A stretch of 62,319 bases of DNA from Candidatus Krumholzibacteriota bacterium (GTDB lineage: Bacteria; Krumholzibacteriota; Krumholzibacteriia; JACNKJ01): positions 1 through 62,319 of the forward strand of contig JAFGBK010000025.1 of the NCBI GenBank assembly GCA_016933175.1, in the 5' to 3' direction. The notes under the pieces were generated by a model, which saw only the letters and a program-made list of their open reading frames with translations, searched no databases and had not been told where the DNA came from. Both the position numbers and the translations under genes were made by a program. Shown here one piece after another: positions 27,954 through 35,182 of this stretch (position 1 is its first letter; each line of letters begins with the position of its first letter).

Positions 27954-29186
27954 TCAGAAGGGTGTCGTCCGTTTCATCCAGATCTCCGACGTGCGCAGGC
28001 TCAGGGCGAGGCCCCAGCGGCTCTCGCCCCCGCCGCCGTCCACCGAGAGCTGCTGCCAGAAGAACGCGAGGTCGATCGAACCGCGTCCCTCCTGCACGTC
28101 GACGCCCGTTCCCAGGCTCAGCAGCAGCTCGTCCACCCGCTCGCCGCTCAGGGGGTCCGGGCGGGGAAGCCGGCCCAGCCGCAGGCCCAGGCGAATGGGG
28201 ATCACGCGCGGCGGCAGCGGCCGCCGGCGCTCGCGGCGGATGAGGTACTCCAGCCCCAGGGCCGCGCGGCTGACGTCCGCCAGGGGATCGGCGGGCAGGG
28301 GCGATAGATAGGTGTCCCAGTCCGTGTAGCTCCACTGCAGGGACAGGATCAGGGCGTCGCCGAAGGGCGCGGCCAGGCCCACGCCCCAGGCGGCGGGCAT
28401 GTGGCCACTGAGGGGCCGCACCGCCGTGGCGTCGACGCCGGCCGTCTCCAGGCGCTCCTCGCCGGTCAGGTCCGCCGCCGTCTCGTAGCGCAGGGAGGCC
28501 TGGACGCCGCGCGGGAGCCGGGCCTGCAGGCCGAGGATGGCGCCGGTGCCGTGCCAGCGCCCCAGGCGCCGCACGCGGCGGTCCCGGTAGTGCAGGTCGG
28601 GATTGTCGTAGACGCTGACGTCGGGGAAGTCGTAGATCCACTCCTGCTCCAGCTTGCCGCGCAGCAGGGAGGCCGCCAGACCGAGGCGGAGACGGTCCGT
28701 GGGCTCCCAGGCCAGGCTCAGGGGGAAGCGGTGCAGCCCGCCCTCCTGGTAGTAGTCCAGCTCGTAGACGACCTCGCCGATGTCCACGGGCAGCGAGAAG
28801 CTGCCCCGCGAGCGCGTGTCGGCGCGGTAGCCCAGGCCCAGGCGCAGGCCATGGGGCATGGGCAGCACGACCTGGAAGGCGGGGAAGTCCTGGCGGGTCT
28901 CGTCCCAGGTGGCCCCGCCGCCGAGATCGCGCCAGGCGCGGCGCAGCTGGATCACCGTCGAGAAGGTGAAGCCCTCCAGGGCCAGCAGCTGGGCCGGATT
29001 GGCCGGCAGCCCGCTCTCCAGGTCCCAGCGCGCCTCGGCGGCGCCGCCCAGGGCGAGGGAATGGGCATCCAGGGGCAGCAGGGGTTCGCCGGGCGTGCCC
29101 ATCTCCCAGATGCTCTCGGCGCGGCCGCCCGCGGGCAGGGCGGCCAGGAGGATCAGGGCGAGTCCGAAGGCCGCGCGCCTACTCAT
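27954..29186 (-). CDS. Outer-membrane beta-barrel protein (PorV/FadL-like)
   Basis: 410 residues with a signal peptide (1-23). ALGGAAEARWDLESGLPANPAQL after the signal resembles the PorV/OmpP1/FadL family, which begins with GG(A/S) and N-P-A(G) motifs at the N-terminal hatch. Many amphipathic strands follow (LRLGLGYRADTRS, RLRLGLAASLL, ALILSLQWSYTD), and the protein ends in Phe as outer-membrane barrels do. Its start overlaps the upstream lipoprotein gene by 8 bases. A transport or type IX-associated role is a family-based guess. Confidence 0.75.
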   Translation of the reverse strand: MSRRAAFGLALILLAALPAGGRAESIWEMGTPGEPLLPLDAHSLALGGAAEARWDLESGLPANPAQLLALEGFTFSTVIQLRRAWRDLGGGATWDETRQDFPAFQVVLPMPHGLRLGLGYRADTRSRGSFSLPVDIGEVVYELDYYQEGGLHRFPLSLAWEPTDRLRLGLAASLLRGKLEQEWIYDFPDVSVYDNPDLHYRDRRVRRLGRWHGTGAILGLQARLPRGVQASLRYETAADLTGEERLETAGVDATAVRPLSGHMPAAWGVGLAAPFGDALILSLQWSYTDWDTYLSPLPADPLADVSRAALGLEYLIRRERRRPLPPRVIPIRLGLRLGRLPRPDPLSGERVDELLLSLGTGVDVQEGRGSIDLAFFWQQLSVDGGGGESRWGLALSLRTSEIWMKRTTPF

Positions 29187-30718: not shown

Positions 30719-32209
30719 TCAGAAGCGGCTGACCAGCACCAGCTCGACGCCATCGAAGGCCGGCTCGTAGCGGCAGACGCCGCCAATGCAGATGTGCCCC
30801 GCGCGCCGCTGGCCGGCGAACAGGCGCATCTCGTGCCGCTCGCCGAGGGTGGCCGCCACCTGCGCGCCCAGCCAGACGTCGCGCTCCCGCTGCTGGTTCT
30901 CCAGGAGCTGCTGCTCGCGCGACCAGTTGACGGCCTCGCCGATGACCGAGAAGGTCCAGCCCGCGGGGTCCTCGAACTCCAGGGTCAGGAACTCGTCATC
31001 GTACTCTCCCGCCAGCTCGCCGTTCTTGTGCTGGTGCTCCCAGATGGCCACCAGCTCGCCGCGGGGCAGGGCGACGCGGGCATCGAACACCAGGGTGAGG
31101 TAGTGGTCCCACTCCCAGCGGGGGCCGGCCAGGCCGCCCGCGTCCACGGGCAGCTTCTGGAAGTCGACGATCGCGTGCAGGTGCTCCAGGGCCGGCAGGC
31201 CGTCCGTGTCCCACTCCAGGAAGGCCTCGCGGTAGTCGCCACCGCCGCGCGCGCCGTCGATGGACTTGGTCGTCGCGTAGGAGGCGAGGAAGCTGCCGGC
31301 CGGCGTCGTCAGGGACAGGTCGGCGAGCAGGCCCTCCTCGTCGTCGGGATCCAGCTCGTGGGGATGGCGGTTGAGCAGCGTCGCCCGCTGGTCGTGGATG
31401 AGGGCCGGCGGCTGGTTCATGAGCTTCTGGTCCAGGGTCTTCAGCGCAATCTCCCGGTAGCGCTTGTAGCCGGCGTAGAGGCTGAACCGGTCGGCGACGA
31501 AGGAGCCCTCGAGGACGTGGCCCCGACCCTCCACGCGGTCCGGCTCGTCGGGCAGCAGCCGCGCGCCCTCCCAGTCGAGCTGGAGCCGGCCGTGGCCGAA
31601 GCTGGCGCGCAGGCCCTGGATCTGCGGGCGGGCCGACTGGTCGGGCCGCTCGAGGCTCAGGAAGGAGACGCCCAGGCGCAGGGGCCCCTGCGCGACGCCC
31701 AGGTCGCCGCCGCTGAAGCGATCGGCGCGGTGGCGGTCGCCGGTCTCGAGCTGCCCCGACTCCGTGCGGCCCGTGAGCAGGGAGGCCTGCCAGTCGTCGG
31801 CGTAGTGTTCGAGAAGGAGACCGTCGAGGTTGGTGTCCACGCGCAGGTCGCGGTTCTCGTAGCTGCGGAAGACCAGGCCGCGTCCCAGCAGCTTGGTGAA
31901 GGTGCCCACGCGCAGGCGCGTGTCGTCCAGCTCCAGCTCGGCGTAGCGGTGGGTGATCCCCTCGCTGGCCTCGGCGTCGTCCGAGACCACGGGGTCGGGC
32001 GGCGCGAAGGAGGAGTAGCGCAGGCCCAGCGCCCAGCCCTCGCCCAGCAGGCTCAGGTCGAACCAGTCCTCGATGATGTCCTGCTCCGCGACGGTGTCAC
32101 GGCTGGCCTCGAGCTGGTTCTGGGCGGCGAGGCAGAAGTCCTGGGCCGCGGCGCCGCCGGCCGCCATCAGCGCCGCGGCGAGGATCGCCGCGGCGGCGGT
32201 CCTAATCAT
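30719..32209 (-). CDS. DUF6029-like outer-membrane barrel protein
   Basis: 496 residues, signal peptide 1-22. The region GRGLVFRSYENRDLRVDTNLDG and the many amphipathic strands match what I recall of DUF6029 proteins of Bacteroidota. The C-terminal LFAGQRRAGHICIGGVC, then FDGVELVLVSRF ending in Phe, is also typical: a Cys pair (474, 479) just before the last strand. It is the last gene of the Omp28-like/secreted/TlpA-like operon and its start overlaps the TlpA-like gene by 8 bases. The two terminal cysteines make it a plausible client or partner of the neighbouring disulfide proteins. Function is otherwise unknown. Confidence 0.75.
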   Translation of the reverse strand: MIRTAAAAILAAALMAAGGAAAQDFCLAAQNQLEASRDTVAEQDIIEDWFDLSLLGEGWALGLRYSSFAPPDPVVSDDAEASEGITHRYAELELDDTRLRVGTFTKLLGRGLVFRSYENRDLRVDTNLDGLLLEHYADDWQASLLTGRTESGQLETGDRHRADRFSGGDLGVAQGPLRLGVSFLSLERPDQSARPQIQGLRASFGHGRLQLDWEGARLLPDEPDRVEGRGHVLEGSFVADRFSLYAGYKRYREIALKTLDQKLMNQPPALIHDQRATLLNRHPHELDPDDEEGLLADLSLTTPAGSFLASYATTKSIDGARGGGDYREAFLEWDTDGLPALEHLHAIVDFQKLPVDAGGLAGPRWEWDHYLTLVFDARVALPRGELVAIWEHQHKNGELAGEYDDEFLTLEFEDPAGWTFSVIGEAVNWSREQQLLENQQRERDVWLGAQVAATLGERHEMRLFAGQRRAGHICIGGVCRYEPAFDGVELVLVSRF

Positions 32210-32795
32210 TCGCTTCCTCCGCGGCCTCGCCGCGATCGGCGTCCGCGGCGGCGGTGTCGGCCGCGGCGGGCGCGCCCTCGCCGGCGGCCCGCTGTTCGAG
32301 ATCGGCGCGGATCAGCTCGGCCCAGGCCTCGGCGTCCTTCGCCCGGTAGCCGGCGCTGCAGCGCAGGACCTCGCCCGCGGCGCTCACCAGCACGTTGTAG
32401 GGCACGGCGCGCCCGCCCAGCTTGCGGTGGGCCTCCTGGTTGGGATCCAGGTAGACGGGGAAGGCGATCTTGTGCCGGCTGACGAAGGGCTTGACCTGCT
32501 TCTGGCTGCGCGGATCGTCGATGCTGATGCTGATGACGCGCAGGCCCGCCGCCTCCCACTCGGCGGCGAACTCCGCGAGCTTGGGCATCTCCGCCAGGCA
32601 GGGCTTGCACCAGGTGGCCCAGAAGTTGATCAGCATCGGCCCCTCGCCGCCGGCGAGCAGGTCGTTCACCTTGATCCGCTCGCCCGCCAGGTCGGTGACG
32701 CTGACCGGGGGCAGCTTCTTGGGCGCAGCCGCGGCGCCGCCGGCGACGAGCAGCAGGGCCGCGGCCAGCAGGGGCAGGCTTCTCCGGATGCTCAC
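32202..32795 (-). CDS. TlpA-like periplasmic thiol-disulfide oxidoreductase
   Basis: 197 residues. A signal peptide (about 1-24) precedes a thioredoxin fold with LINFWATWCKPCLAEMPKL; the CXXC pair is Cys63/Cys66 in the WCxPC form of TlpA/ResA. RAVPYNVLVSAAG supplies the cis-Pro loop. The last 30 residues are an Ala/Asp/Glu-rich tail. Reductases of this type keep periplasmic cysteines reduced or repair them. It sits between a secreted Cys-containing protein gene and the DUF6029-like barrel gene, both of which carry an ICxGxxC pair, so these are the obvious candidate clients (inference). GTG start with AAAGGA upstream. Confidence 0.92.
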   Translation of the reverse strand: MSIRRSLPLLAAALLLVAGGAAAAPKKLPPVSVTDLAGERIKVNDLLAGGEGPMLINFWATWCKPCLAEMPKLAEFAAEWEAAGLRVISISIDDPRSQKQVKPFVSRHKIAFPVYLDPNQEAHRKLGGRAVPYNVLVSAAGEVLRCSAGYRAKDAEAWAELIRADLEQRAAGEGAPAAADTAAADADRGEAAEEAND

Positions 32796-32826
32796 GGGCT
32801 GAGTCCTTTCGCCGGGGGTGAGCGCG

Positions 32827-34170
32827 TTACTTGAGCAGCGTCATCTTGCCCGCCGCGACCTCCTCGCCGAGGCGGACGCGGTAGAGGTAGACGCCGCTGG
32901 GCAGGTCGCGGCCGGCCTCGTCCACGGCCAGGAAGGGCACGGCGTTCTCGCCGGCCATCACCGGCGCCTCGAAGCGGCGCAGCAGCCGGCCGCGCAGGTC
33001 CAGCACCTCGATGCGGGCCGTTCCCGCCGCGGGCGCGGCGAAGTGGATCGCGGTCTCGGGATTGAAGGGATTGGGCGCGTTGCCCCGCAGGGTCAGGCGC
33101 GCCAGTGCCGGCACGCCGCCCGCGCCCGTCGTGCCGCCCAGCAGCTCGACGGCGCGGTTGAGCAGGGCGCCCTCGATGGCCGGGGCCGCCTCGGGAGCGA
33201 AGCCGAAGTAGGCGAACCTCATGCCCTGGGTACGGGTGATAGCCGCCGCCTGCCCGTCGCCGTAGCGGAGGGACACCGCCGCCGGGCCGGCGAGCGCCGG
33301 GACCACCACGTCGGGATCCACGTAGCCGGGCAGGAAGGACGAGGCCAGGCCGCAGCCGATGAAGTCGCCGGGCACGCCCGCCACGTCGGTGCTGGCGCTC
33401 TCGCCGCGATAGGCCAGCCCGAGCGTGGACTCGAACCAGTCCACCGTGGCCTCGCTCTGATAGACGCTGTTGGTGTCGCAGAGCTCGAAGGCCAGGTCCT
33501 GGCCCGCGAGCAGCAGCGGTCCGTCGCCGGCGAGGTAGTCGCCCACGAGGCCGCGGTCCGTCTGGTCCAGGCCGGGTGCCTTCGTGCCGGTCAGCCACAG
33601 GACCATGGGAAAGGCCTGGAGGTCGGCCAGGAGGGGCGCCTCGGCGTGGCGCGGCCACACGCCCGCGACGGGCGTCAGGAGGCTGGCCATGGACTGGGCG
33701 AAGAACATGCCGTCGCCGTGGCTCGAGCGGTCGTCGACGATCAGGAGGTCGCAGCCCGTGTGGGCGCCCGCGTAATCCAGACTGGCCGAGAGCATCGGGT
33801 CGCCCTGGCTGCGGACGGACATGTTCACGACGCCCGTGCCCACCGTGGTGGCGATGGTGAAGTTGATCTTGACGTAAGTGGACTCGCCGGGGTTGAGCAT
33901 GTGGCTCACGTCGAAGACGTCGGGCGCGTAGCAGTTCTCGCCCACGCAGATGGAGGCCATCCAGCCCGCCGGGAGCCACTCCTCCTTGTGGATGTCGTAG
34001 GTGTCGCGCTCATCGCCCGTGTTCGTGAGATTGCCCTTGAGCTCCATGAACGACCAGTCACCGCCCGTGCCGACCAGGTCGACAGCCTCGAAGGTGAAGT
34101 CCAGGACCGCCCGCGCCGGCAGGGCGGCCGTACAGATGCAGACCAGAGCCAGTGTGAGTTTGCGCAGCAT
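32827..34170 (-). CDS. Secreted protein with FlgD/T9SS-like C-terminal module
   Basis: 447 residues. Signal peptide about 1-21. The N-terminal beta region has the cysteine pair ICVGENC (74-80). A middle segment reads CDLLIVDDRSSHGDGMFFAQSM with an alpha/beta character. The end (about 350-447) has NAPNPFNPETAIHF, GTARIEVLDLRGRL, and LPSGVYLYRVRLG. This FlgD-Ig/type A sorting-like tail is widespread in FCB and candidate phyla and is commonly linked to type IX-type export or surface attachment. No T9SS genes are in the window. It is second in the redox operon, one base after the Omp28-like gene. Confidence 0.82.
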   Translation of the reverse strand: MLRKLTLALVCICTAALPARAVLDFTFEAVDLVGTGGDWSFMELKGNLTNTGDERDTYDIHKEEWLPAGWMASICVGENCYAPDVFDVSHMLNPGESTYVKINFTIATTVGTGVVNMSVRSQGDPMLSASLDYAGAHTGCDLLIVDDRSSHGDGMFFAQSMASLLTPVAGVWPRHAEAPLLADLQAFPMVLWLTGTKAPGLDQTDRGLVGDYLAGDGPLLLAGQDLAFELCDTNSVYQSEATVDWFESTLGLAYRGESASTDVAGVPGDFIGCGLASSFLPGYVDPDVVVPALAGPAAVSLRYGDGQAAAITRTQGMRFAYFGFAPEAAPAIEGALLNRAVELLGGTTGAGGVPALARLTLRGNAPNPFNPETAIHFAAPAAGTARIEVLDLRGRLLRRFEAPVMAGENAVPFLAVDEAGRDLPSGVYLYRVRLGEEVAAGKMTLLK

Positions 34171-34171
34171 G

Positions 34172-35182
34172 TCAGCGACCTCCGTTGGGTTCATGCGCCG
34201 CGTCGAGTATGGTCTTGGTCTCGTCATGCTGGACGAAGGCCAGGGCCCTCAGGCTGTCGGCGTTGGCGATACCGAGGTTGGGGGTGAAGACGGCGGTGGC
34301 GCCGAAGTCGGCGCCCGGCGTCAGATCGACCGGGACGCCCTGCAGGCCGTCCGTGTGCGTGTTCACGTGGCGCACAACATGACGCCAATCGTTCTGGCCA
34401 TTCTCGGCCTCATAGTAGATGTAGGTTTCGTAGAGGACGAGGTAGAGGCGCCAGGGCCCCGCGCCGGGAGTCCCGATGACGGTTCCCGCCGCCTCCACCG
34501 TGACCGTGCCGCCCTCCTGCGTGCGCGTCACGGTCATCGCGAGCTGCGGCTCGGCGGCCAGGCGCGACTCGATGGCGGCGAGTATGGCGGTGGAGTTGAA
34601 CTTGTCCACCACCACGTCGCCGTCAACGATGATCTGCGGCGTACTCGATACGCTATAGAAGCTGTAACGCTGATTGTGCACGGAGGGATTGTAGAAAAAG
34701 AACGGATCGTAACCGCTGTATGTCTGATGGAAACCGAGTGTATATACTGGCCCCATTGCTTGTGTGATAGCTTCTTCCATCGCAGTACCCGCCGCTGGAC
34801 AACCGTCGCAGCCGGCACCAGTAAAATCCTCCACGATGACCATGTGCACGGGCAGCGTCTCGCCGCGGAAGCGCAGCGTGTCCTCGGCGCCGGCGGCCAG
34901 CGTCACCGTGGTCTCGGCCGGCGCGAAGGACCAGCCGGCCAGGGCCAGGCTCACCGTCAGGGGCGCGCCCGGCGGCACGCTGAAGTCGGCCGGCGTCGTC
35001 TCGGCCTGGAGCTGCCCGCCCAGCGTGACGGCGGCCCCCGCCAGGGGCGCCGACTCCGCGTCGCTGGCCAGGACGGTGAGGGCGGCGGTGTCCGTCCCGC
35101 CGTCCACACGGACGGGATCCTCCTGGCCGCAGAGCGTGAAGCTCGCCAGGAAGAGCAGCGGTGCGAGGGTCAGCAGGCGCAT
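34172..35182 (-). CDS. Omp28-like thioredoxin-fold envelope protein
   Basis: 336 residues. Hydrophobic signal at 1-17; the Cys18 context (FTLC) is not a good lipobox, so lipidation is doubtful. A beta-sandwich-like stretch (about 35-108) precedes the Omp28-related domain beginning HMVIVEDFTGAGCDGCPAAG, with the CDGC pair at 125/128 and a cis-Pro loop in SVSSTPQIIVDG. Omp28-related proteins are outer-membrane or surface proteins of Bacteroidota. The motif implies disulfide chemistry. It heads a four-gene operon with a TlpA-like protein. The ATG at 35182 is favoured because it opens the hydrophobic signal; a longer frame would start with a non-signal sequence. Confidence 0.85.
   Translation of the reverse strand: MRLLTLAPLLFLASFTLCGQEDPVRVDGGTDTAALTVLASDAESAPLAGAAVTLGGQLQAETTPADFSVPPGAPLTVSLALAGWSFAPAETTVTLAAGAEDTLRFRGETLPVHMVIVEDFTGAGCDGCPAAGTAMEEAITQAMGPVYTLGFHQTYSGYDPFFFYNPSVHNQRYSFYSVSSTPQIIVDGDVVVDKFNSTAILAAIESRLAAEPQLAMTVTRTQEGGTVTVEAAGTVIGTPGAGPWRLYLVLYETYIYYEAENGQNDWRHVVRHVNTHTDGLQGVPVDLTPGADFGATAVFTPNLGIANADSLRALAFVQHDETKTILDAAHEPNGGR

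Follow-up and report, generated by a model that had tools for sequence, protein, structure and literature searches.

Four adjacent genes in a 62,319-nucleotide stretch of DNA from a Candidatus Krumholzibacteriota bacterium (contig JAFGBK010000025.1; the whole stretch is referred to as the window) belong to a conserved module whose constant core is formed by a TlpA-like thiol-disulfide oxidoreductase and an outer-membrane β-barrel of the DUF6029 family, whereas the variable part consists of thioredoxin-fold proteins with a CxxC or UxxC motif (U, selenocysteine) and of proteins with a C-terminal tail of the kind used by the type IX secretion system (T9SS). Together they make up an undescribed and widely conserved kit of a periplasmic disulfide reductase, a large outer-membrane pore and thioredoxin-like surface proteins, some of them with selenium, between which electrons would be transferred. 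The thiol-disulfide machinery of Gram-negative bacteria is thought to be confined to the periplasm. Our preferred reading, to which we assign a probability of about 0.42, is that the locus represents an outer-membrane thiol-redox module of T9SS-bearing bacteria in which TlpA and the barrel serve thiol-redox proteins at the surface, so that these bacteria may perform thiol chemistry outside the cell. If this is true, several phyla maintain thiol redox chemistry beyond the outer membrane, the DUF6029 and Omp28 families, both without a function, gain a concrete and testable context, and the module predicts the existence of surface selenoproteins. An extracytoplasmic thiol relay is of a known kind; a reductase linked or fused to an outer-membrane barrel and accompanied by surface partners of the thioredoxin fold would be the new part.

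The four genes lie head to tail on the minus strand in the order omp28, secreted protein, tlpA and barrel, with an operon-like spacing (1 nucleotide between the first two, 31 nucleotides between the second and the third, and an overlap of 8 nucleotides between tlpA and the barrel gene). The genes, the cysteine motifs, the coordinates and the residue numbers reported by a first-pass annotation of this DNA were all found to be correct on re-reading the sequence. The barrel (30719–32209, 496 residues) is a clear member of the Pfam family PF19494 (98.7 bits against a gathering score of 27, E-value 4.4e-28) and carries the sequence ICIGGVC at residues 473–479 (30773–30793), with C474 and C479 in a predicted β-hairpin before the last barrel strand. 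TlpA (32202–32795, 197 residues) possesses a signal peptide, a thioredoxin fold and a WCKPC active site (W62, 32598–32612), and passes the Pfam threshold for AhpC-TSA (75.1 bits against 26, 5.9e-21); its score for the ResA subfamily of NCBIfam (83.4 bits, 1.7e-23) lies below the cut-off of 170. The first gene (34172–35182) encodes a 336-residue protein of the thioredoxin fold with a signal peptide and a CDGC motif (about 34799–34810), filed here as DUF1223/Omp28-like since it reaches the Pfam cut-off of DUF1223 (44.7 bits against 30.7, 2.1e-11) and just misses that of Omp28 (PF11551, 31.5 bits against 34.9). The secreted protein (32827–34170, 447 residues) was modelled with AlphaFold 2 at a predicted local distance difference test score (pLDDT) of 87.9 as an Ig-like domain, a Rossmann-like middle domain and a FlgD-like C-terminal tail; the top structural matches of this protein are at the level of single domains and indicate no function, and its cysteines C75 and C80 (ICVGENC, residues 74–80, 33931–33951) are located in the Ig-like domain. 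A sequence search among solved structures retrieved no homologue of either the barrel or the secreted protein. Taken alone, the FlgD-type tail attributed to the secreted protein is borderline (the NCBIfam model of the T9SS type A sorting domain scores it at 22.7 bits, with a cut-off of 23); the assignment is supported by relatives, as the homologue in locus L104 exceeds the FlgD_ig cut-off and an NPFN-type tail is present in 62 of the 63 relatives (secrN proteins) without an Omp28 domain. The same genome encodes both SprA, the T9SS translocon (428 bits), and DsbD (144 bits).

The distribution of the module was analyzed on three sets of barrels, two of them retrieved with the Pfam Hidden Markov Model (HMM), from 146 relatives (set 1, 53 genomes positive) and from the phylum of genome G086 (set 2, 32 of 39 genomes positive), and the third by a peptide-pattern scan of named genomes (set 3, 381 relatives, 80 kept); neighbouring genes were recognized with profiles built from the window's own proteins, and coverage of Bacteroidota proper is sparse. 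TlpA is linked to the barrel in 128 of 135 testable DUF6029 loci (about 95%), being either fused to it, encoded directly upstream, or encoded a few genes upstream in the same run. These loci span Krumholzibacteriia, among which L104 and L008 (genome G032) carry the label Candidatus Krumholzibacteriia, Eisenbacteria, Ignavibacteria, Calditrichota and other phyla. Sets 1 and 3 contribute 112 distinct barrels. In 30 of them a TlpA domain precedes the barrel within a single open frame; in 63, tlpA overlaps the barrel gene or lies no more than 150 bp from it, and in 5 it is found further upstream in the same run. Contig ends truncate 8 others, and TlpA was scored as missing in 6, one of which (L040) is an artefact of open reading frame (ORF) extension, with a tlpA gene 129 bp ahead of the barrel. 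For the G086 phylum the figure is 29 of 31 new barrels, each with TlpA directly upstream. One fusion, in L112 (6894–9398), joins two TlpA domains, each with WCIPC, to a DUF6029 barrel in a single ORF, the barrel coming last. Krumholzibacteriia, Eisenbacteria, Ignavibacteria/Melioribacteraceae and Calditrichota all contain loci with the complete order omp28, secreted protein, tlpA, barrel, and Omp28 is fused to the secreted-protein domains in several loci (L043, L084, L112, L118, L126 and L132). More generally, the genes recurring around the module encode redox proteins and T9SS-tailed proteins; in some phyla selA is among them. The co-occurrence of the four families in other genomes, proposed in the first-pass annotation as the way to check the system, is thus strongly supported, and the four families constitute a conserved module. 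Each of them is also found elsewhere alone, as would be expected if four unrelated envelope genes were neighbours by accident in this genome. Since AhpC-TSA genes are few per genome (only 6 matches in that of the window), chance adjacency of TlpA and barrel is expected near 1%, and an accidental arrangement is refuted by the linkage over 135 barrels of several phyla, together with the fusions, so that its probability is negligible.

Conservation of the barrel cysteines was evaluated on the HMM-selected barrels alone, as the peptide scan had itself selected for GGVC[RKI]xEP[AE]F. Of 86 complete barrels (a total that counts G086, identical to L031, twice), 85 carry the motif Cx[GSAN]GxC. The pair is found in 53 of 54 complete distinct barrels of set 1, the exception being L014, which runs into a contig edge and has a scrambled end, and in every barrel listed for the G086 phylum (32 including G086). 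In an alignment of 24 sequences with a mean identity of 29%, both cysteines are among the 12 invariant columns. The CxxC of TlpA is retained in all 105 distinct tlpA matches of the loci, 100 times as WCxxC. The cysteine pair of the secreted protein, with the family pattern W-x(4)-C-x(3-4)-C-[YF], is common without being invariant: the pattern W...C-x(3-5)-C-[YFHW] is matched by 67 of 86 Ig-like domains, and the pair is lost in some Ignavibacteria and in selenocysteine-Omp28 fusions. The first-pass annotation had taken ICxGxxC as a motif common to the barrel and the secreted protein and as evidence for a joint system. This is not sustained, as the pairs are located in different folds and vary independently; non-cysteine residues common to both C-x4-C hexapeptides number 1.26 for pairs from the same locus and 1.34 for shuffled pairs. 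The likeness is a coincidence at the residue level, each family having its own C-x4-C.

The natural TlpA-barrel fusion of L104 (7449–9413) was modelled with AlphaFold 2 from 77 sequences, with a pLDDT of 92 and a predicted template modelling score (pTM) of 0.91. As counted from the strand list, the predicted barrel has about 24 strands and is of the size of an usher, with long odd-even and short even-odd loops, as expected if both barrel ends are periplasmic. In the model, a small hairpin joins the last two strands and holds C633 and C638 opposite one another; this position, with both ends of the barrel in the periplasm, places the near-invariant cysteine pair on a predicted outer loop, whereas the N-terminal TlpA domain would be periplasmic. 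A freely moving TlpA domain (about 150 of 655 residues) should give a pTM near 0.7, and the value of 0.91 thus suggests a fixed position, TlpA apparently being docked on the periplasmic side of the barrel. The hairpin geometry predicted for the cysteines would also suit a structural disulfide, which raises an alternative that we consider possible though doubtful, namely a dedicated maturation device in which TlpA, acting as oxidant or isomerase, makes or proof-reads the disulfides of the last outer loop of the barrel, of Omp28 and of the C-x4-C protein, as a folding helper for its clients, a view near to that of the first-pass annotation. The adjacency or fusion of TlpA would fit such a private chaperone, and in 35 of the 53 pair-bearing barrels of set 1 the pair represents the sole cysteines of the protein; however, two cysteines allow only one pairing, so that no isomerase would be needed. 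Moreover, to our knowledge the TlpA/ResA proteins characterized to date are reductants, which counts against this alternative.

Structural comparison with Foldseek places ushers such as FimD first for the barrel (TM-scores of 0.40–0.43), with AlgE-type exporters also near, and ResA, TlpA and Etrx structures for the N-terminal domain of the fusion. The wide barrel could accordingly serve as a pore that exports or imports a cargo (a peptide, a thiol compound or the Omp28-type protein itself), with TlpA keeping the cargo reduced or closing the pore and the cysteine pair acting as a gate. Besides the closest solved barrels, this agrees with a suggestion of polysaccharide secretion for DUF6029-like barrels, made as a guess in the one paper naming DUF6029 among the literature searched (PMC9603273). 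Against it, no cargo gene and no outer-membrane polysaccharide export (OPX)/Wza-type or polysaccharide synthesis gene is found among the recurrent neighbours, and neither Omp28 nor the secreted protein needs such a pore, since signal peptides and, in many relatives, T9SS-type tails give them another exit; we regard the gated pore as unlikely. Assignment to the Wzi/AlgE-type polysaccharide export barrels was rejected on the same absence of OPX and polysaccharide synthesis genes. Membership in the chaperone-usher family was likewise rejected, as the similarity is limited to the fold of the barrel and no chaperone or pilin genes recur nearby. Indeed, whereas FimD and PapC share with the module a large barrel of about 24 strands by fold comparison, identity is about 10% and the module barrel is devoid of the usher N- and C-terminal domains, TlpA standing in place of the periplasmic domains. 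The structural matches of the TlpA domain include Bradyrhizobium TlpA in mixed-disulfide complexes with ScoI and with cytochrome oxidase subunit II, which brings in metal handling as a further explanation: the C-x4-C pairs would bind copper or another soft metal and be kept reduced by TlpA, as Bradyrhizobium TlpA does for ScoI and CoxB. No histidine or methionine is conserved around either cysteine pair, no metal transporter or cytochrome gene recurs nearby, and a selenocysteine partner, described below, is better explained by catalysis, which makes this explanation very improbable. The alternatives to the preferred surface redox module thus rank in the order private folding device, gated pore, metal handling.

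Several ORFs adjoining the module start just after an in-frame TGA codon, which occupies the site where a thioredoxin-fold domain has its first active-site cysteine. A scan in which TGA was read through, and the profile match was required to span it, yielded 29 rows corresponding to about 16 distinct loci near a barrel (within about 4 kb), the UxxC being situated in a redoxin, several with a T9SS-like tail, or in an Omp28 domain. Decoy read-through over loci L031 and above gave 0 cases for TAA and 1 for TAG. Predicted UxxC redoxins with a signal peptide are encoded directly upstream of tlpA-barrel in L046 (8891–9709), L052 (8739), L054 (8117), L056 (5483), L047 (4868) and L038 (6124); several of them, for example that of L046, bear a T9SS/FlgD-like tail, and L041 has the cysteine version (CAPC) of the redoxin. 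In addition, the barrel gene is immediately followed by selA in 16 loci from two phyla (TIGR00474, 529 bits against 268), among them L031 (9190–10554), L053 (7950–9437), L176 (8735–10195) and 13 more, and in the contig of L053 a selB-family match follows shortly after selA (G129:C67:54242). The read-through scan detected no selenocysteine thioredoxin-fold gene in the loci of the G086 phylum themselves, although selA is present there. A sequence family of Omp28-related selenoproteins, to which no function is assigned, is on record (NF045500, listed as GOS_C; PMC13188914). The neighbouring partner carries a catalytic CxxC or UxxC of its own, and a catalytic selenocysteine at this site argues that the partner is an enzyme and not a mere folding client, in which such a residue would be unexpected.

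The first-pass annotation had proposed a dedicated disulfide relay that folds or regulates the barrel and a surface protein. This proposal is partly supported: the conserved module, the near-invariant barrel pair, the common pair of the secreted protein and the frequent TlpA-barrel fusion agree with it. A role restricted to folding is less well supported, as the partner at the surface is in most cases an enzyme of the thioredoxin fold in its own right (Omp28 with CxxC, or a UxxC protein with selenocysteine), which points to redox catalysis there. In the preferred reading, DsbD would presumably keep TlpA reduced from the cytoplasm, and TlpA would dock at the periplasmic mouth of the wide DUF6029 barrel, or plug it. 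The two would serve surface proteins of the Omp28 type, with a CxxC or UxxC thioredoxin fold, and the T9SS-tailed C-x4-C protein. TlpA would most likely hand reducing equivalents to the surface enzyme, either through the barrel or past it and possibly via the cysteine pair of the last outer loop; the surface enzyme would in turn reduce an extracellular disulfide, sulfoxide or peroxide. In its most explicit form, which we put forward only tentatively, the module would be a trans-outer-membrane thiol/selenol conduit, with TlpA in or under the 24-stranded barrel and reducing equivalents transmitted via the outer-loop pair to surface thioredoxin-fold enzymes, as an outer-membrane counterpart of DsbD.

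Several observations weigh against a surface redox module. The docking of TlpA is deduced from the high pTM alone, and the barrel pair, predicted as a tight cross-strand hairpin, could be a plain structural disulfide. The Omp28-type protein of the window has no T9SS tail, which leaves its surface location uncertain, and among stand-alone Omp28 relatives a clear lipobox is found in 24 of 75 and an NPFN-type tail in 19 of 75. In three barrel loci from Bacteroidetes-labelled/Saprospiraceae metagenome-assembled genomes (L139–L141), omp28 follows directly after the barrel with no tlpA upstream on the same strand; in L140 and L141, tlpA is near the barrel on the opposite strand. Finally, some loci with TlpA and barrel show no recognized surface partner.

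No description of a link between TlpA and DUF6029, or between DUF6029 and Omp28, was found in the literature searched, and the statement of the first-pass annotation that the system is not a described one agrees with this. The nearest working parallel appears to be the surface thioredoxin pathway CcdA-Etrx1/2-MsrAB2 of pneumococcus, in which a protein of the CcdA/DsbD type exports electrons to TlpA-like proteins, with a reductase at the cell surface as the final acceptor (PMC3914529). The pneumococcal pathway differs by the lack of an outer membrane, by lipoproteins instead of a barrel, and by the absence of an Omp28 partner, and its abstract mentions no selenocysteine partner (PMC3914529). 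Judged by its gene content and localization signals, the module would be consistent with a surface thiol relay of the Etrx type. The DsbD-TlpA/CcmG/ResA pathways likewise employ a CxxC protein of the TlpA/ResA type, and DsbD is present in the genome; however, they end in the periplasm (cytochrome c, CoxB, Sco), whereas here TlpA is tied or fused to an outer-membrane barrel. Omp28 lipoproteins and the Omp28-related selenoprotein (NF045500) have the same thioredoxin-like domain with CxxC or UxxC, linked here to TlpA and the barrel, and the DUF6029 family, uncharacterized so far, is here tied to TlpA. With T9SS cargo the secreted partners share the NPFN/FlgD-type C-terminal tail, borderline in the protein of the window, in a genome that encodes the SprA translocon, whereas the module barrel is neither SprA, PorV nor another named T9SS component.

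A few further observations concern the genome and the surroundings of the module. A 466-residue ORF starting at 34227 is an over-extension of the secreted-protein gene, the true start of which is most likely the ATG at 34170, right behind the omp28 stop codon. Two AhpC-TSA matches elsewhere in the genome (G000:C68:10538-10936 and G000:C110:1014-1352) are each interrupted by one in-frame TGA and are possible selenoproteins; a SelB search of this genome gave a match above the cut-off, and as other elongation factors match too, it says little about whether selenocysteine is used. The window encodes a BamG-like protein two genes downstream of the module (27954–29186; NCBIfam NF053685, 59.6 bits, below the cut-off of 250), and this gene, together with the ORF 30603–29179, is also found near the barrel in the close relatives L045, L048 and L058.

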